From an uncultured Shimia sp. (lineage in GTDB: Bacteria; Pseudomonadota; Alphaproteobacteria; Rhodobacterales; Rhodobacteraceae), in the NCBI GenBank assembly GCA_937897325.1, contig CALCOY010000063.1:1-64000 (forward strand): 64,000 nt of DNA, read 5' to 3'. The first letter of the stretch is position 1; each line of letters opens with the position of its first letter. A program made the position numbers and the translations under genes. Shown in pieces: positions 6,259-14,727 of the stretch. The notes under the pieces are model-generated. The model was not told where the DNA came from and did not search any database. It saw only the letters and a list, made by a program, of their open reading frames with translations.

Positions 6259-6615
6259 GTCACTCAACTCCTAAGTTCGGGCGTAGTTTTGCCCTCGTAT
6301 CGAAATTCGGTATTCGGTCGTTTGGTTTCAACGGGCTGAAATCACGCCTGCGTGAAGGTGGCCAATTTTGGCCCAAAACCAGCCATACAGTGCAAAAGGT
6401 TGCCAAAAACGACGTCGCAAACGGCGCAGACAGCCTGTTTCTGTCAATGTAATGTGTCTTTGCGACAACACATGGTGCGGATGATGCAAAGAATTTGGTG
6501 CAAGATCGCACTTGTCTGCCGAACAATCGGTGCCGGTCGCGGTCGGGCGGCACGGGGAAGACCTGAAAGAGCGTGGATCTAGCCATCTCTTTTCTCTTCA
6601 CCATGGAATTTGCAT
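6259..6615. other. Divergent intergenic region between outer-membrane gene and mttB-like gene
   Basis: This 357-base stretch separates two divergently transcribed genes, so it must hold both promoters. It contains a perfect 14-base palindrome, GGCCAA-TT-TTGGCC, at 6360-6373. I could not pick convincing -35/-10 pairs, and the short frames here look non-coding. Confidence 0.4.
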
Positions 6616-8157
6616 ATGAACGATCAAACCCCCACCCGCAGCGGCGGCCGTGCGGCACGCCGCGCCGCGCGCGCAGCACCTCTTGCCGATCACCTGCGGC
6701 CCGTCCGTCCCGGCCTTGAGGGCGGCAGCTATTCACCCCTGACCGATCAAAACGTCGAGCGTATCCACAAGGCTGCGCTGAAGGCGCTCGAAGAAATCGG
6801 TCTGGCGGATGCCCCGGAAAGCGGCATTGCACATATGACAAACGCCGGGGCGGTCTTGGGCGATGACGGGCGGCTTCGATTTTCTCCGGCGCTGATCGAA
6901 GACACGATTGCGAAGGCGAACCGGTCAATCACCCTGTTCGGCCGCGACACTGCACATGACCTGAATCTGTCGGGCAATCGGGTTCACTACGGCACGGCAG
7001 GTGCGGCGGTGCATATGGTAGAGGTCGAGAGCCGCAGCTACCGAGAATCGACACTACAGGATCTCCACGATGCGGCCCGCATCGCCGACGTGCTGGACAA
7101 CATCCACTTTCTGCAACGCCCAATGGTCGCGCGTGATGTGACGGACAACAGGCTGCTGGACCTCAACACGATATATGCCTGTTGTGCCGGGACGACCAAA
7201 CATGTCGGCACGTCCTTCGTCGAGAAAGCCTTTGTGACGGACGCGCTTGGCCTTTTGCACATGATCGCCGGCGGCGAAGCAGCCTGGCGCGCCAGACCTT
7301 TCGTGTCCAACACCAACTGCTTTGTGGTCCCGCCGATGAAGTTCGCAACAGAAAGCTGTGAAGTGATGGAGGCTTGTATCGAAGGCGGCATGCCGATCCT
7401 TCTGCTCAGTGCGGGCCAAGCGGGCGCCACGGCGCCTGCCCCGATTGCAGGCGCCATCGTTCAGGCCGTCGCTGAATGCCTGGCAGGTCTTTTCTATGTG
7501 AACGCAGTCAGGCCCGGACATCCAGCGATTTTCGGCACATGGCCCTTTGTCAGCGATCTGCGCACCGGGGCCATGTCAGGCGGAAGTGGCGAACAAGCTC
7601 TGCTGACTGCCGGCTGCGCTCAGATGCAGCGCTTCTATGATTTGCCCGGCGGGGCTGCTGCGGGTATGGCTGACGCCAAGCTCCCCGATATGCAGGCCGG
7701 TTGGGAACAGGCGATGTCGAATGCCCTGGCAGGACTTTCGGGTCTGAACATGGTTTACGAGGCCGCTGGCATGCATGCCTCGCTCTTGGGCTTCTGTCAT
7801 GAAAGCCTGATTTTGGGCAACGACATGCTGGGGCAGGCTTTGCGCTGCGTGCGCGGCATCGAAGTGACAGAAGACGCCCTGTCGGTGGAGACCATACGCG
7901 CGACCTGCCTGGGTGGGCCGGGCCACTATCTGGGCACAGAACAAACGTTGGGTGTCATGCAGACAGAATACGTCTATCCCGCAATAGCCGATAGATCTTC
8001 TCCCAAGGAATGGGAGGAAAATCAGCGTCCCGATCTGCTGGAGGCGGCCAGCGTGCGTAAGGATCAGATCCTTGCGGCAAGAAGTGCAGCGCGCTTCGAG
8101 CCATCAATCGACAATGCGATCCGGGAGGCATTCGAGATTCTGCTGCCGGAGGCATAG
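6616..8157 (+). CDS. Trimethylamine methyltransferase (MttB) superfamily protein, non-pyrrolysine type
   Basis: A 513-residue member of the MttB superfamily, whose known members transfer a methyl group from a quaternary or tertiary amine to a corrinoid protein. Recognisable stretches include the LKALEEIGLADAP N-terminal region, VHYGTAGAAVHMVE, and the long barrel segment with GQAGATAPAPIAGA. No in-frame UAG (pyrrolysine) interrupts the gene, so it belongs to the non-Pyl group that includes glycine betaine methyltransferases. No corrinoid protein or reactivase gene is nearby, so the partner must lie elsewhere. The arginine/alanine-rich leader (GGRAARRAARAAP) is normal for this group in Rhodobacterales. 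I start at the ATG at 6616 and not the TTG two codons earlier. Confidence 0.82.
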   Translation: MNDQTPTRSGGRAARRAARAAPLADHLRPVRPGLEGGSYSPLTDQNVERIHKAALKALEEIGLADAPESGIAHMTNAGAVLGDDGRLRFSPALIEDTIAKANRSITLFGRDTAHDLNLSGNRVHYGTAGAAVHMVEVESRSYRESTLQDLHDAARIADVLDNIHFLQRPMVARDVTDNRLLDLNTIYACCAGTTKHVGTSFVEKAFVTDALGLLHMIAGGEAAWRARPFVSNTNCFVVPPMKFATESCEVMEACIEGGMPILLLSAGQAGATAPAPIAGAIVQAVAECLAGLFYVNAVRPGHPAIFGTWPFVSDLRTGAMSGGSGEQALLTAGCAQMQRFYDLPGGAAAGMADAKLPDMQAGWEQAMSNALAGLSGLNMVYEAAGMHASLLGFCHESLILGNDMLGQALRCVRGIEVTEDALSVETIRATCLGGPGHYLGTEQTLGVMQTEYVYPAIADRSSPKEWEENQRPDLLEAASVRKDQILAARSAARFEPSIDNAIREAFEILLPEA

Positions 8158-8278: not shown

Positions 8279-8536
8279 TCAGCCGTCCGTTTCTTCCGGC
8301 ATCAGCCCAGCTTCTTGCGCGGCGGCAATCTCATCTGCGTCAAGTGCGCCGTCCGCATTGAGGTCCATGGCCGAAAAGCCATCAGAGCTGACATCGGGGA
8401 AAGAGGCCTGAACCTCATCGATTGTCAGAACGCCATCGCCATTGGCATCCATCTCGGTCGCACTTTCGCCCATGGCCAGTGCCGGGATAGTCAGCGCGGT
8501 TGCGGCTGCAAAACCCAGTGTCGCAAGTCTCTTCAT
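8279..8536 (-). CDS. Small secreted EF-hand calcium-binding protein
   Basis: An 85-residue protein with a signal peptide (MKRLATLGFAAATALTIPALA) and two EF-hand loops: DANGDGVLTIDE and DLNADGALDADE. Both keep acidic or amide residues at positions 1, 3 and 5 and the glutamate at position 12, so they should bind calcium in the periplasm. I use the ATG at 8536, with GGGAGA 8 bases upstream, and not the GTG five codons earlier. The gene is divergent from an ECF sigma factor with about 240 bases between the starts. No enzymatic domain is visible; the role is unknown. Confidence 0.83.
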   Translation of the reverse strand: MKRLATLGFAAATALTIPALAMGESATEMDANGDGVLTIDEVQASFPDVSSDGFSAMDLNADGALDADEIAAAQEAGLMPEETDG

Positions 8537-8613
8537 TTTGGTGTCTCCCACTTTTTGAAGTGTCTTTTGAACGAGAGCTTTTTGTGTCTCTCACCATGTT
8601 TGAGTGGGAAGTC

Positions 8614-8625
8614 GACGTTTACGTC
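8614..8625. promoter_or_regulatory. Perfect inverted repeat between EF-hand and sigma factor genes, candidate operator
   Basis: GACGT-TT-ACGTC forms a perfect 12-base palindrome in the region between the divergent EF-hand and ECF sigma genes, 78 bases upstream of the EF-hand ATG. Its position suits a shared operator. No matching second copy was noticed in the window. Confidence 0.3.
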
Positions 8626-8775
8626 CCAATACCGCGCGACCTCAACCATCGCGGGCAACAGGATGCCGATACGCCGCCACGCCATGCGCGGCGGCTCGCC
8701 CAAAAAGGGCCATTTCGCACGATCGGCCAGAAACCCCCATCTGGTATTGCACCAGAAAGCCGCCAAGTTGATGTC

Positions 8776-9261
8776 ATGTACCTCAAACGCACCCAAGGCG
8801 CCAACAGCGGCCTCATCCGCTTGATACCGATGCTGTCCAAGCGGGCTCGCAAGCTGGCGCACAATGCGGCAGAAGCAGACGATCTGGTGCAGGACACTCT
8901 TCTTTCCTTATGTCAGCGAATGAAAACGGCCGACCGGATCGATGATTTGCCCGCCTACGCCATGCGCACCTTATCCAATCAGGCCCGCAGGGGCTGGAGG
9001 CGCATGGCAGATGAGGAATTGCACGAATGTGATGCTGCGACCCCGCCAGAGGCGGAGGGGCGCCTTGCTTATGCGGATACGCTCGACGCCATCGCACGCC
9101 TGCCAGACGCGCAACGGATCCTTATGGAGTTGGTCGCAGCGGGCGAAACCTCACCCAACCGCCTCGCTGACCAGACCGGTGTGCCGATCAATACGGTGAT
9201 GTCGAGGCTGGCACGTGCGCGTGCGAAGCTGCGGCTTGATCTCGACGCGCGCGACACCTGA
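8776..9261 (+). CDS. ECF-type RNA polymerase sigma factor
   Basis: A 161-residue sigma-70 family protein with only regions 2 and 4, the ECF layout. Region 2 is around residues 20-75 (NAAEADDLVQDTLLSL, then AYAMRTLSNQARRGWRR). Region 4 is near the C-terminus (LPDAQRILMELVAAG, then GVPINTVMSRLARARAKLR, a helix-turn-helix). The ATG at 8776 gives the expected family length, although its ribosome-binding site is weak and the frame is open far upstream. There is no anti-sigma gene beside it; the only close neighbour is the divergent EF-hand gene. A terminator hairpin follows immediately. The target regulon is unknown. Confidence 0.85.
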   Translation: MYLKRTQGANSGLIRLIPMLSKRARKLAHNAAEADDLVQDTLLSLCQRMKTADRIDDLPAYAMRTLSNQARRGWRRMADEELHECDAATPPEAEGRLAYADTLDAIARLPDAQRILMELVAAGETSPNRLADQTGVPINTVMSRLARARAKLRLDLDARDT

Positions 9262-9297: not shown

Positions 9298-9365
9298 GCG
9301 CGCTCATTGGGCGCGTCAGCGCCTAGCTCAAACGTGTTTCTTTGGCCAAGACTGTTGCGTCTGAG

Positions 9366-9394
9366 AAAAAGAAAACGGAGCCCGAAGGCTCCGT
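9366..9394 (-). terminator. Strong rho-independent terminator on the minus strand
   Basis: ACGGAGCC (9375-9382) and GGCTCCGT (9387-9394) form a perfect 8-base-pair stem. On the minus strand the loop is the stable TTCG tetraloop and the tail reads TTTCTTTTTC (9374-9365). It has no annotated minus-strand gene directly upstream except the small basic protein 190 bases away, which suggests it ends a separate small RNA or a long 3' untranslated region. Confidence 0.75.
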
Positions 9395-9565
9395 TGGAGT
9401 TTCGCCGTTCAGGCTCAATTTGTTAACCGCTCGGTATTTTTTGCCTGCGGCCTGAACGTCGTCAGAGGCGAGCGCACCCGCCCCGTGTCACGATGGGCAA
9501 GGACTGATCGTCCGCCCCCACCCTGTTCGGCGGAGACCGGCCTTGGTTTTAGAACCGGCCTCCTG
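9375..9565 (-). ncRNA. Candidate structured small RNA (or long structured 3' UTR)
   Basis: This non-coding stretch ends at a strong terminator and is full of self-complementary segments when read on the minus strand. A first hairpin spans 9563-9532 (GGAG...CTCC outer pairs, GGTT/AACC inner pairs). A second has a perfect 8-base-pair outer stem, 9451-9458 with 9406-9413, and inner CCGC/GCGG pairs at 9427-9430 and 9447-9450. The third is the terminator hairpin. No promoter was identified, so it may be either an independent transcript or the 3' end of the mRNA for the small basic protein upstream. It did not match any RNA family I could recognise. Confidence 0.4.
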
Positions 9566-9585
9566 CTGCGCCATGGAAGGGCGCA

Positions 9586-9726
9586 CTATTTCTTATTCTG
9601 ACGCTGCGTGAGCGCCGACGCCGCTGCTGATTTGGCAGCCTTTGATGACTTCGGATTGGAAAGCACCTTTGCCGCAGCAGAAGCAGCTTTGGCGCTCGTA
9701 ACCTCCGAATTCTTACGTCGAGCCAT
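9586..9726 (-). CDS. Small lysine/alanine-rich basic protein (46 residues)
   Basis: A 46-residue frame starting MARRKNSEVTSAKAASA and ending SALTQRQNKK. A textbook GGAGGG ribosome-binding site lies 7 bases upstream of the ATG at 9726. The composition (many Lys, Ala, Ser and short AAK repeats) and the ending QRQNKK are familiar from small conserved hypothetical proteins that recur in Gram-negative genomes. No function is established; the positive charge suggests nucleic-acid or other polyanion contact, which is only inference. About 20 bases downstream begins the structured RNA region with its terminator. Confidence rests on the ribosome-binding site and on recalled conservation. Confidence 0.68.
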   Translation of the reverse strand: MARRKNSEVTSAKAASAAAKVLSNPKSSKAAKSAAASALTQRQNKK

Positions 9727-9957
9727 GATAGACCCTCCATTTATCCACCGCAGATTGTCGAAAACTCGGGTATGTTCCCTGTATCTCCTTGTATCTTTGG
9801 TAGAACAACAGCGCGTAGTTGAACGCAGTGTCCGAGCGTGTTCCTCCTTTTGCTACGGCCGACTCAGGCCGATCCGCTTTGTCTCCTGTCCACGCTGTTT
9901 AAGAAGGAGACGAGCTGGGAGAGGGTGTTGCATCACTCTCTCCCAACCCTCAATCTC

Positions 9958-12900
9958 TTAGCTACACCCCGACGTCGCGCCGCAGGTGTTGCACTTCATG
10001 CAGGTTCCATTGCGCACCAAAGTGTAGTTGCCGCATTCGCCGCAGGCTTCGCCCTCGTAGCCCTGCATCTTGGCCTTCGTCCGCGCGTCGATCGCCGTGG
10101 CCGAGACCGATTTGCTCATCACAGCTGAAGCGGCAACAGCAACTTCTGGAACAATCGCTTCCAGTGCAGCAGATGGATCGGCGAGCGAAGTCTCCGCCCC
10201 ACCCTGCAACACAACAAGTTCCTGCGGGAGGCGCTTGCGAAGATAGCCGGTCGAGCTGATCTGCTTCAGCACTTCCAATGACTTGGAAGCCGCATTTTCG
10301 CTCAGTTCCTTGACATTCGAAACACCCTCTTCCTCACCGCGGCCCAAATCGTCAAATGTCGCCCCTTGTGGCGCTACATGGGCGAGATCCGTGCGATCCA
10401 GATAGCTGACGGCCAGCTCGCGGAAGATGTAGTCAAGGATCGAAGTTGCGTTCTTGATTGAATCGTTGCCCTGAACCATCCCGGCAGGTTCGAACTTGGT
10501 GAAGGTGAAGGCGTCCACAAATTCCTCAAGCGGGACGCCATATTGCAGGCCAACCGACACGGCGATGGCGAAGTTGTTCATCATCGCCCGGAATCCGGCG
10601 CCTTCCTTGTGCATGTCGATGAAAATCTCACCCAGCGAGCCGTCACCGTACTCACCCGTACGCAGATAGACCTTGTGGCCACCCACAATCGCTTTCTGTG
10701 TGTAGCCCTTGCGACGCTCGGGCATCTTTTCGCGGTGACTGCGCACGATCTCCTTGACCACGACTTTTTCCACGATCTTCTCGGCCAGCACAGTCGCCTT
10801 TTCCTGGATCGATCCGCTTTCAAGCACCTCCGATGCATCCTCGTCATCTTCGACCAGAGCAGCTGCCAAAGGCTGCGAGAGTTTCGAGCCGTCGCGATAA
10901 AGCGCATTGGCCTTCACACCAAGCGACCACGACAGTTCATAAGCGCGTTGGCAATCCTCAATCGTCGCATCATTGGGCATGTTGATCGTTTTGGAAATCG
11001 CGCCAGAAATGAAGGACTGGGCCGCGGCCATCATGTGGATGTGGCTGTCGACACTCAGATAACGTTTGCCTTTCTTGCCGCACGGATTGGCGCAATCGAA
11101 GATGTGGTAGTGCTCTTCCTTCAGATGCGGCGCACCCTCCAGCGTCATCGTCCCGCAGACGTGATCGTTGGCCGCATCGATATCCACCTTTGCGAAGCCA
11201 AGATGGCGTAGCAGATCGAAGGTCGGATCGTTCAGCTTTTCGGCAGGGATACCAAGTACTTGCGTGCAGAACTCTTCGCCAAGCGTCCACTGATTGAAAA
11301 CAAACCGGATATCGAAGGCGCTCTCCAGAGCGGCATCCACCTTAGCCAACTCGTTGGGCCCAAAACCGTGGCCCGCCAGCGTTGTGTGATTGATTCCAGG
11401 TGCATTGCCGATCGTGCCGTGACCGACGGCATAGCTAACGATCTCTTCTATCTGCGCAGACCCGTAGCCAATGTTCTCAAGTGCTGCCGGTACCGATTGG
11501 TTGATGATCTTGAAGTAGCCACCACCGGCCAGCTTCTTGAACTTGACAAGAGCAAAGTCAGGCTCGATCCCCGTTGTGTCACAATCCATCACGAGGCCGA
11601 TTGTCCCGGTCGGTGCAATCACCGTGGCTTGCGCGTTGCGATAACCATGCGCCTCACCCAGTCTTAGTGCTTCGTCCCAGCAGGATTTGGCAACGTCGAT
11701 AAGGCGCGCATCCGGGCAGTTGGCGTGATCCAATGCCACCGGCTTGACGGCCAAGGCTTCATAACCCTCCGTCGCACCATGCGCCGCTGTTCGATGATTA
11801 CGCATCACACGCAACATGTGATCGGAATTCTTGGCGTATCCGGGGAATGGGCCCAGTTCACCCGCCATCTCCGCACTTGTTGCATAGCTCACGCCGGTCA
11901 TGATCGCGGTCAGGGTCCCGCAAAGCGCGCGCCCCTCGGCGCTGTCATAGCCAAGCCCCATATTCATCAAGAGCCCACCAATATTTGCGTAGCCCAGACC
12001 CAAAGTCCGGAAATCATAGCTCCGCTGCGCAATCTCCTTCGACGGGAATTGCGCCATCATCACGCTGATCTCAAGTGTTACAGTCCAAAGACGCGACGCA
12101 TGCATATAATCCTCGACCTGAAACACGCCGTCTTCGAGGAACGTCAGCAAGTTCATCGATGCGAGATTGCACGCCGTGTCGTCGAGGAACATGTACTCGG
12201 AACATGGGTTTGATCCGCGAATCTGACCATCTTCCGGGCAGGTGTGCCACTCGTTGACTGTGTCGTGGTACTGGATACCCGGATCTGCGCATGCCCAAGC
12301 CGCATGCCCTACCTGCTCCCACAGATCGCGAGCCTTGATCGTTTTGGTCACCGAGCCATCGACCCGGTTGATCAATTCCCAATCAGCGTCTTTTTCGACC
12401 GCTTTGAGGAATGCGTTGGTGACCCGGATAGAGTTGTTCGAATTCTGTCCGCTGACCGAGTTATAGGCCTCAGAATCCCAGTCGGTATCGTATGTCGGAA
12501 ACTCAATGCTTGTATGACCCTGCTTGGCATAGTCAAGAACGCGCTTGATGTAGGTCTCCGGGATCGCAACCTTCTTGGCTGCCTTAACAGCCTCCTTCAA
12601 GCTATTGTTCTTGCTCGGATCATATGCATCCCCTTCAACACCATCCCAGTCGCGAAGCGCGGCGAAAATCGCATTGAGCTTCTCTTCGTGCATCTTAGAA
12701 CCGGCGACAATACTTGCCACTTTCTGCTCTTCGATAACCTTCCAGTTGATGAAGTCCTCGATGTCGGGGTGGTCAGCATCCACGATCACCATTTTGGCCG
12801 CGCGCCGCGTTGTGCCACCCGACTTGATCGCCCCGGCCGCACGGTCACCGATCTTCAGGAAACCCATGAGGCCGGAGCTCTTGCCGCCGCCCGACAGTTT

Positions 12901-13605
12901 CTCGCCCTCTCCGCGGAGCGATGAAAAATTGGTGCCTGTGCCCGATCCGTATTTGAACAGGCGCGCCTCACGAACCCAGAGATCCATGATCCCACCGTCA
13001 TTCACCAGATCGTCGGCAACCGACTGAATAAAGCAGGCATGGGGCTGCGGGTGTTCGTAGCTTGACTTCGATTTGGTGAGCTTACCTGACTTGTAGTCCA
13101 CATAGTGATGCCCCTGCGCCGGGCCGTCGATTCCGTATGCCCAGTGCAGGCCCGTATTGAACCATTGAGGAGAGTTTGGCGCCGCACGCTGTGTGGCCAG
13201 CATGTGCCGCATCTCGTCATAATAGGCGCGCGCATCTTCCTCGGTCGAGAAATAGCCGCCCTTCCAACCCCAATAGGCCCATGCACCAGCAAGCCGGTCG
13301 AAGACCTGCTTTGAGGACGTTTCACCACCCATCTCCGCGCCCTTGGCCGGAACGGACCGCCACAGAAACTCTGGTACGTCCTTCTCCTTCACCTTTTGGA
13401 GCTTCGACGGAACGCCAGCCTTGCGGAAGTACTTTTGTGCGATGACGTCGCTGGCCACCTGGCTCCAAGGCGCCGGAACTTCAACTTCATCAAGTCTGAA
13501 AACAACGGTGCCGTCCGGGTTCCGGATCTCGGACAATGTTGTCACGAAATCTAGCTCTGCGTAAGCGTCCTGTCCTGATCGGGTGAATTTTCGTTCAATC
13601 TTCAT
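9958..13605 (-). CDS. nrdJ: Vitamin B12-dependent (class II) ribonucleotide reductase
   Basis: NrdJ reduces ribonucleotides to deoxyribonucleotides using adenosylcobalamin to generate a thiyl radical, so it needs no oxygen-dependent partner subunit. The 1215-residue length is that of the large alphaproteobacterial form. The active-site motif [10 protein letters not shown] places the thiyl cysteine at about Cys468, with redox cysteines near Cys191 (HACFIQS) and Cys479. The last 30 residues hold a Cys-rich zinc-ribbon-like tail ([13 protein letters not shown]). No nrdAB genes are in the window. A possible NrdR box and small upstream ORF precede it. A cobalamin riboswitch was looked for upstream and not seen. 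Downstream, an 8-base-pair hairpin without a U-run at 9916-9945 may mark the transcript end. Confidence 0.97.
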
Positions 13606-13629
13606 CGCGCTGCCTCGTTTCCAGCTTTT

Positions 13630-13830
13630 TCATTCGGTTCCGTCATTGCGGCGCCGCACCTCTTTTGCCTTAACGATCGGGCAAAAACCTCTCCGTCTGG
13701 GATCAGCGCCCCAGTTCAAGCCATTTTCGGCGGGTTGGAAATGCCCCTGTCGCTTGGTATGCCGCCCTTCAATAACTACTAGATCTTGTGGCTTCACACC
13801 CGGCCCACACAAACTGACGTAGATACCCAT
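13630..13830 (-). CDS. Possible small protein upstream of nrdJ
   Basis: A 66-residue open frame ending 24 bases before the nrdJ start, in the same direction. It reads MGIYVSLCGPG..., with a plausible globular middle (GHFQPAENGLNWGADP) and basic C-terminus. I do not recognise it. The ribosome-binding site is weak, third-position GC is about 54% by my count, lower than in the neighbours, and a palindromic NrdR-like box lies inside the frame. It is either a small coupled gene or a chance frame in the nrdJ leader. Confidence 0.35.
   Translation of the reverse strand: MGIYVSLCGPGVKPQDLVVIEGRHTKRQGHFQPAENGLNWGADPRRRGFCPIVKAKEVRRRNDGTE
13776..13791 (-). promoter_or_regulatory. Candidate NrdR box upstream of nrdJ
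   Basis: On the minus strand CCACAAGATCTAGTAG matches the core of the NrdR operator consensus (acaCwAtATaTwGtgt), keeping C-w-A-n-A-T-n-T-w-G. It lies about 170 bases upstream of the nrdJ start. NrdR sites usually come in pairs about 31 bases apart; I see only this one, which lowers confidence. Confidence 0.4.
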
Positions 13831-14121
13831 ATCCCGTCAACGGCTTTTTTATAAGTTTTGTAACAAATTCAGCTTGACCCAAAGCTCGAATGCGGGGCCA
13901 CGAACGGGCGGGTGATTCAATGTGTTAACGCAGCGTGACCCCGCGCGCGCAGAACCAGCTATCAGACAAACCTGAAAATCGTTTTCGATTGAGGGTTTAG
14001 TCACAAAAATTCGTCCGCAACCTAAGCCTTCACAAAGTTTAACAACGTCGATCCCGAAAGCATTTGCTGCGACTGCAGAAATATGATGACCTGTCAGTGA
14101 TTTGTTCAAAGCGAGGGCCGA
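13831..14121. other. Divergent intergenic region between nrdJ side and lipoprotein gene
   Basis: About 290 bases without a gene, AT-richer than the surroundings. It must contain the promoters for nrdJ (minus) and for the lipoprotein (plus). I see no riboswitch-like structure or clear operator apart from the NrdR-like box just outside it. Confidence 0.4.
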
Positions 14122-14583
14122 ATGCGTCTTTTGATCCCCTTGATGCTTGGCCTAGCGGCATGTGCGCCACAATATGTTGAGCGCGAAATTACCTCCGACC
14201 AAGATCTACCCGTGCGAAAGGCGTTTTTTGAGTCGCGCCCCAAGCCGCTTGAGGACGCATTCCGGGCATCCTGCACAGCGCCCGGAGACACCTACAAGCG
14301 GGTCTCGCAAGAGTTGGTGCAATGCCGCATCTTGCCCGCACCGGATCTGGCAGCGTTCCTCGTCTTGGAATTTGACGGGGCGCTCGAAGCACCAACGCTG
14401 ATCATGCAGAAAAAGACCGAACCCCGGGGTGAGGAATACCTTGTCGAGATGTCTTACTATGCCGAGGTGATCCAGAAATCGGGAAGTCCGCGCAGGATCT
14501 ACTTTCAGCAACGGCGCCTTGATCGGCTGGTCGATGAGTTGCTAAGTGCGGCGGGTGGCCGACCATCGCCATCGGAAACCTAG
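14122..14583 (+). CDS. Predicted lipoprotein, unknown function
   Basis: A 153-residue protein with a short lipoprotein signal peptide: MRLLIPLMLGLAAC, where LAAC is the lipobox and Cys14 the lipidated residue. The mature part has no domain I recognise; it contains charged segments and two further cysteines (ASCTAPGD and VQCRIL) that could form a disulfide in the periplasm. A GAGGG ribosome-binding site precedes the ATG. The tRNA-Pro gene follows on the opposite strand. It may be anchored in the inner or outer membrane; the residues after Cys14 (Ala, Pro) do not include the Asp that signals inner-membrane retention. Confidence 0.7.
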   Translation: MRLLIPLMLGLAACAPQYVEREITSDQDLPVRKAFFESRPKPLEDAFRASCTAPGDTYKRVSQELVQCRILPAPDLAAFLVLEFDGALEAPTLIMQKKTEPRGEEYLVEMSYYAEVIQKSGSPRRIYFQQRRLDRLVDELLSAAGGRPSPSET

Positions 14584-14607
14584 GCTGCAAAATGGAATTT
14601 TTTGGAC

Positions 14608-14684
<77 letters not shown>

Positions 14685-14727
14685 ACCATTTCGCCTCTTT
14701 AATGAGATGAATCGGGTTTGAAAAGCC

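Follow-up and report, generated by a model that had tools for sequence, protein, structure and literature searches.

What does the minus strand around positions 9366-9600 encode, to which gene does it belong, and does it act as part of a message or as an RNA of its own? These questions are raised by the window, a stretch of 64,000 nucleotides from an uncultured Shimia sp. (contig CALCOY010000063.1). The preliminary description had read 9366-9565 as a highly structured, non-coding minus-strand segment ending in a strong terminator, and as either a small RNA or a processed 3' UTR of the gene of a small basic protein. Further upstream on the same strand is nrdJ; NrdJ is an enzyme that makes DNA precursors. 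The features, from nrdJ downwards, are:

9958-13605, minus strand: nrdJ, vitamin B12-dependent (class II) ribonucleotide reductase, 1215 amino acids (NCBIfam NF005736, Pfam)
9586-9726, minus strand: gene of a lysine/alanine-rich basic protein of 46 amino acids, an open reading frame between nrdJ and the RNA
9489-9566, minus strand: two predicted upstream hairpins (9530-9566 and 9489-9525), variable in sequence (predicted fold)
9398-9487, minus strand: whole conserved core (match to the covariance model R1 with 100.4 bits, E 5e-18, the sole match in its own genome)
9465-9484, minus strand: P1 hairpin, GGGGCGGG-UGCG-CUCGCCUC (pairs changing on both sides: 6 of 8 in alignment A2, 8 of 8 in A3)
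9407-9457, minus strand: P2 hairpin with an 8-base-pair outer stem, GUUCAGGC/GCCUGAAC (outer helix: both sides change in 5 of 9 pairs, and 98.5% of cells are paired)
9398-9405, minus strand: conserved single strand GCGAAACU in the interval between P2 and terminator (alignments)
9362-9395, minus strand: intrinsic terminator with a 9-base-pair stem (9374-9395), UUCG loop and T-rich tail

A conserved, structured RNA

The minus strand between 9366 and 9600 folds with -104.5 kcal/mol, compared to -82.7 ± 4.5 kcal/mol for dinucleotide shuffles (z -4.86), and none of 200 shuffles was as low; for 9370-9487 alone (118 nucleotides) the z-score was -3.18, with one of 200 shuffles equally low. The strong structure noted in the preliminary description is thus confirmed, and so are the 8-base-pair outer stem around an inner stem, which is P2, and the tetraloop terminator with its T-rich tail. 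Only the count of hairpins before the terminator needs correction: the predicted fold has four (the two upstream hairpins, P1 and P2) rather than three. The absence of a coding frame also held up: no open reading frame of at least 40 amino acids is listed over the core on the minus strand, and the minus-strand frame at 9549-9740, which is a different one, touches the edge of the 9366-9565 segment only. Relatives differ from each other by insertions or deletions of one or two nucleotides, which fits a non-coding RNA and speaks against coding.

The conserved unit (9374-9487) is narrower than 9366-9600 and consists of the core (P1, P2 and the single strand) and the terminator stem. Of the hairpins, relatives share only P1, P2 and, in some form, a terminator, while the two upstream hairpins vary in sequence. 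P1 reads GGGGCGGG UGCG CUCGCCCC across the alignment and is followed by a short linker to P2; in a few members (L019, L023, L025) its sequence differs. Inside its outer stem, P2 has a short inner stem and a large internal loop that hardly varies (CGCAGGCA...CGRGCRGU...GAG), and P2 holds 16 of the 20 columns that are invariant over the 23 sequences of alignment A1, from which one false match (L027) had been removed beforehand.

Covariation was measured in A2, which contains 22 of the 23 rows of A1 (L020 was left out). In this alignment 97.0% of cells are paired, 11 of the 21 pairs have changes on both sides, and the covariation score is 0.283 compared to 0.124 in shuffles, none of 500 being as good; when the partner was slid by one to three columns, pairing dropped to 31-46%. 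RNAalifold gave essentially the same helices unaided and guided the structure that was tested. The larger alignment A3 (82 sequences) has two-sided changes in 13 of 21 pairs; the invariance of the inner loop in A3 is partly built in, as the search pattern fixes the inner loop, and P1 and the outer part of P2 lie outside the pattern. The four innermost pairs are invariant or vary on one side only and are therefore outside the reach of the covariation test. The core is a structured non-coding RNA with compensatory changes beyond shuffled expectation, and the covariation in the stems, whose absence the preliminary description had named as evidence against its own reading, is clearly present.

These data bear on the simplest possible explanation, a terminator region or a chance fold with no further function. 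GC-rich DNA folds easily, and strong hairpins of unrelated sequence do precede the core. However, P1, P2 and GCGAAACU are conserved and the stems covary, while the sequences of terminator and spacer vary, and we consider this explanation hardly credible.

Where the spacer is at least 45 nucleotides long, many genomes have strong hairpins of unrelated sequence upstream of the core. Over the last 45-70 nucleotides of the spacer, 80 copies have a mean z-score of -3.1 and 71% are below -2 (mononucleotide shuffles), with no alignment between copies. Judged from these predicted folds, the spacer may keep structure without keeping sequence, perhaps as a barrier or as an RNase III site.

The RNA has a near-fixed place behind nrdJ

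The nrdJ product is identified by NF005736 (2229.6 bits, cut-off 1737) and by the Pfam domains Ribonuc_red_lgC and Ribonuc_red_2_N. Coordinates of both the RNA and nrdJ are listed for 108 of the 162 carrier genomes, and in 107 of these 108 the RNA lies on the same strand, about 4-683 nucleotides behind the nrdJ stop codon (median 116). The distance is less than 30 nucleotides in 21 of the 107 genomes and just 4-10 nucleotides in 20 genomes. When distinct copies are counted (111 in 109 loci; identical cores counted once; L125 and L143, at locus edges, left out), the 3' end of nrdJ is found upstream of 108; in two of the remaining three, the DNA on that side is limited to 45 and 107 nucleotides. 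Among the matches listed there are 27 further matching loci: in 26 the RNA follows an nrdJ 3' end on its own strand, and the last one (L174) has about 130 nucleotides of upstream DNA. In L158 (at 7443 and 6645, minus strand) and in L018, two successive matches to the C-terminus of nrdJ are found upstream of the RNA, which would fit a partial duplication of the nrdJ 3' end.

The 46-amino-acid protein, rich in K, A and S, has no match in Pfam or NCBIfam. Proteins with 82-91% identity are encoded just upstream of the RNA in L153, L117, L093 and L113; in total, the gene precedes 5 of the 111 copies and, among the matches listed, none of the 27 further loci. It is an inserted neighbour, not a constant part of the arrangement, and its 3' UTR was rejected as the origin of the RNA. 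The near-fixed place indicates that the RNA belongs to nrdJ instead. The preliminary description was therefore right about the kind of RNA and wrong about its parent gene. Like 3' UTR-derived sRNAs, the RNA sits behind a coding sequence on the same strand, at what would be the end of its transcript, and has a terminator that we infer to serve nrdJ as well.

On the other side of the RNA, the window has a sigma-70/ECF-type gene (plus strand) and a gene of an EF-hand protein (minus strand), read divergently, at 8279-9261. Both are found downstream of the RNA with the same orientations in 11 other loci, which suggests that the sigma-70/ECF-type factor may control the EF-hand gene; an EF-hand gene lies downstream on the same strand of 28 of the 111 copies, at varied distance. 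Further away, Rfam places PYLIS_3 above threshold at 7666-7765 (plus strand), inside an MttB-family gene (6610-8157). This gene is open throughout, with no in-frame stop codon; its product would thus be a homologue that needs no pyrrolysine, and the name PYLIS_3 misleads. Further matches to PYLIS_3 are found in L002 and, slightly under its threshold, in L003.

Presence and absence in the family

A DNA search covered 61 genomes: the own genome, 36 others of the same family and 24 from other families. At E ≤1e-5, 20 of the 36 had a match and none of the 24 did. Of these 20 matches, 18 fall within 9365-9495, and two more genomes of the family match weakly. With the covariance model R1, and with filters that lose weak matches in both genome searches, the RNA was found in 162 of 248 genomes of the family, with one match each, and in 5 of 385 genomes from across the class, all five from the same family and the own genome among them. 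A pattern scan gave at least 119 loci. Among the matches listed, R1 recognises 64 of 80 pattern loci, the 16 non-matching ones bearing the names of other lineages, and 27 of the other 39. Named carriers include Ruegeria, Shimia, Sulfitobacter, Celeribacter and Roseobacter, all Rhodobacteraceae-type genera; Rhodobacter sphaeroides probably belongs to the same family.

NrdJ is encoded in 241 of the 248 family genomes, and all 162 carriers are among these. The seven genomes with no nrdJ match have no match to the RNA either, four of the seven being less than 90% complete. The 79 nrdJ genomes with no RNA match indicate that the RNA is dispensable. Hidden, decayed copies were searched for in 31 nrdJ 3' regions from these 79 genomes (four of them cut by a contig end): 29 had nothing convincing, and two had weak copies, one directly behind nrdJ (L197, 20.4 bits) and one about 440 nucleotides behind it (L219, 27.3 bits).

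A tree of NrdJ C-termini (FastTree, 133 of 138 rows, midpoint-rooted, many weak forks) requires nine changes between presence and absence of the RNA, compared to a mean of 28 when presence was shuffled; none of 500 shuffles was as low. One group contains 25 of the 31 RNA-less rows, together with five carriers and G010, the genome with a detached copy described below. Six carriers make up the group that splits off at the midpoint root; the RNA is 8-11 nucleotides behind the stop codon in four of them and 69-70 nucleotides behind it in the other two. An early origin of the RNA with later losses is likely, on a tree that is itself weakly supported.

Transcription and exceptional copies

A simple script test found a terminator-like hairpin with a T run, variable in sequence, behind 107 of the 111 copies. 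Upstream of 107 copies, sigma-70-like scores were on average no better than in shuffled sequences, with typed, E. coli-like weights that may miss alphaproteobacterial promoters. Grouped by distance to nrdJ, the mean promoter z-score was -0.89 at up to 50 nucleotides (30 copies), -0.59 at 51-150 nucleotides (36 copies) and -0.16 at more than 150 nucleotides (41 copies); scores above 1.5 were reached by 7% of the most distant group and by none in the two nearer ones. No sigma-70-like promoter was found in the window between 9300 and 9990. An own sigma-70 promoter was therefore rejected as a general feature of the copies, and the 21 genomes with less than 30 nucleotides between nrdJ stop codon and core have no intergenic room for one. 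The simplest inference from these sequences is that the RNA would be co-transcribed with nrdJ and share its terminator.

Two loci depart from the common arrangement. G010 (L194 4842-5200) has the only copy that is clearly detached from nrdJ: the RNA shares contig and strand with nrdJ but lies at a distance of 112 kb, between a divergently read open reading frame and an EF-hand gene. It is intact (91.1 bits, terminator kept), which stands against a strictly cis role, and, apart from nrdJ as it is, it must be served by some promoter other than that of nrdJ. By eye, a candidate (TGTCAA-16 nt-TATTGT) ends about 110 nucleotides upstream, with a score that is not significant (9.5 compared to 6.5 ± 2.4 in shuffles). 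The nrdJ gene of G010 is now trailed by what reads by eye as an ordinary terminator-like hairpin. L145, from an uncultured Sulfitobacter, has three tandem copies behind nrdJ (minus strand, 2117-2205, 2495-2587 and 2814-2906), each with a terminator-like hairpin; to judge by their scores of 87, 66 and 44 bits, the later copies may be decaying. A perfect TATAAT, seen by eye, stands about 70 nucleotides before the second copy.

Could the RNA then be a free-standing sRNA gene with its own promoter, merely syntenic with nrdJ? The promoter that the G010 copy needs and the position of the second and third L145 copies behind terminators are what such a gene predicts. The missing promoter-like enrichment upstream of the 107 copies, the 4-10 nucleotides to the stop codon in 20 genomes and the non-significant G010 candidate all speak against it, and we regard a free-standing gene as decidedly unlikely.

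Comparison with known RNAs

At the Rfam 15 gathering threshold, a scan of the window returned two tRNAs and PYLIS_3, with no family at this RNA, and a permissive scan of 9300-9990 gave no match over the core; the Rfam scan of the minus strand that the preliminary description had proposed thus names no family for the core at threshold. Among 20 relatives, the one match overlapping the RNA region was weak (ctRNA_pGA1 in L008, 23 bits, threshold 45). SymR and Pseudomonas P5 were rejected, as their Rfam matches are far below threshold and off the core. 6S RNA (RF00013) is likewise a conserved structured non-coding RNA of this genome, but its single match (53.3 bits) is on another contig, C34. The RNA does not fit a riboswitch in the sense of a 5' leader aptamer, as it lies downstream of nrdJ in 107 of 108 genomes; on the downstream side, the survey covered the window's own neighbour genes.

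In the literature searched, we found no description of an RNA trailing nrdJ, and supplements may list it, for example among the genome-8 motifs of PMC8632094 or in the sRNA lists of PMC4809877 and PMC5107571. The main texts of PMC4809877, PMC8632094, PMC5107571, PMC11109978, PMC2864571, PMC6429828, PMC8625941, PMC9438474 and PMC6238624 mention neither nrdJ nor ribonucleotide reductase. 'Intergenic 134' of P. denitrificans shows strong expression, and its conservation extends over Rhodobacteraceae and further; the available part of the text on it does not place it relative to nrdJ. Two motifs described by Brewer et al. 2021 (PMC8632094) are similar in kind, as far as the available part of that paper goes. 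HRC-28-1 is also structured, ends in an intrinsic terminator and may, in its authors' view, belong to the 3' UTR of the gene before it, but it is mostly from Polynucleobacter and has six stems and other neighbour genes, and no relation is suggested. HRC-8-4 is also an uncharacterised structured RNA, confined to Rhodobacterales, but has a terminator stem with a conserved tip and is mostly found between ccoNOQP and ccoGHIS, not behind nrdJ.

The closest parallels in kind are several 3' UTR-derived sRNAs that R. sphaeroides makes by RNase E cleavage. According to the available parts of PMC8625941, PMC9438474 and PMC6238624, SorX, PcrX, CcsR1-4, UdsB, UdsC and UdsH are stable RNAs from the 3' ends of mRNAs; several end at the mRNA terminator, and their 5' ends are mostly made by RNase E, whereas for the nrdJ RNA such a release is supposition. 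Compared by description, the nrdJ RNA also looks distinct from these sRNAs in its large conserved internal loop. The RNA family thus appears to be new, while its kind, a structured 3' UTR RNA or 3' UTR-derived sRNA, is already known.

A possible regulatory RNA from the nrdJ message

Given the observed structure, conservation, covariation and near-fixed place, our reading is that the nrdJ mRNA ends in this conserved, structured segment and that this 3' tail is probably released as a regulatory sRNA; we put the probability of this reading at roughly 55%. RNA polymerase would pass nrdJ (here also the 46-amino-acid gene), P1 and P2, and stop at the intrinsic terminator. A 3' fragment of about 115-130 nucleotides would then probably be cut free, most likely by RNase E, and would serve as a small regulatory RNA, with the P2 internal loop and GCGAAACU as its sequence-specific parts. 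Release and action in trans are supposed by analogy: the RNase E-cut 3' UTR-derived sRNAs of R. sphaeroides make release as an sRNA our first choice and a cis element the second. An intact copy apart from nrdJ, as in G010, fits an RNA acting in trans. For autoregulation through the 5' region of nrdJ there was no signal: in 32 copies, pairing was no better than in mononucleotide shuffles (mean z 0.30 and -0.21).

Simple antisense sRNAs do not usually have an internal loop so large and invariant, and the P2 loop would suit a cis element that binds a protein or ligand just as well. The RNA could be a purely cis-acting 3' UTR element that sets the stability or translation of the nrdJ mRNA, perhaps with a protein or small ligand in the P2 loop, and with no sRNA acting in trans. 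Its near-fixed place behind nrdJ, its absence from all seven genomes with no nrdJ match and the concentration of invariant nucleotides in the internal loop are consistent with such an element. The same is true for the reductase content: no class I small subunit was found in 219 of the 248 family genomes (the window's own genome is among the 29 with one), and, judging from gene content, most of them probably have NrdJ as their sole aerobic ribonucleotide reductase. It also fits that no cobalamin riboswitch was found in the window at gathering score, nor at 13500-14700, upstream of nrdJ, with E up to 1. Against it stand the intact RNA of G010, 112 kb from an nrdJ that has an ordinary terminator-like hairpin instead, and the tandem copies of L145, which lie behind terminators. 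We consider a purely cis-acting element possible but rather unlikely, and prefer the released sRNA.

A more specific function is doubtful: the P2 internal loop might sense adenosylcobalamin, a nucleotide or a protein, and the tail of the nrdJ message would thereby control deoxynucleotide supply or, once released, tune B12 use or DNA synthesis in trans.

In a hand tally, the RNA is present in 21 of 29 genomes with a class I small subunit and in 141 of 219 with none, and a link to the class I reductase was rejected. With no class I small subunit found in so many genomes, many of these bacteria probably cannot do without the nrdJ message. The conserved RNA attached to this message points to a level of control over deoxynucleotide supply, or to an sRNA made in step with it. 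As the family is outside Rfam 15 and a working covariance model is at hand, the RNA can be annotated at once in many genomes.
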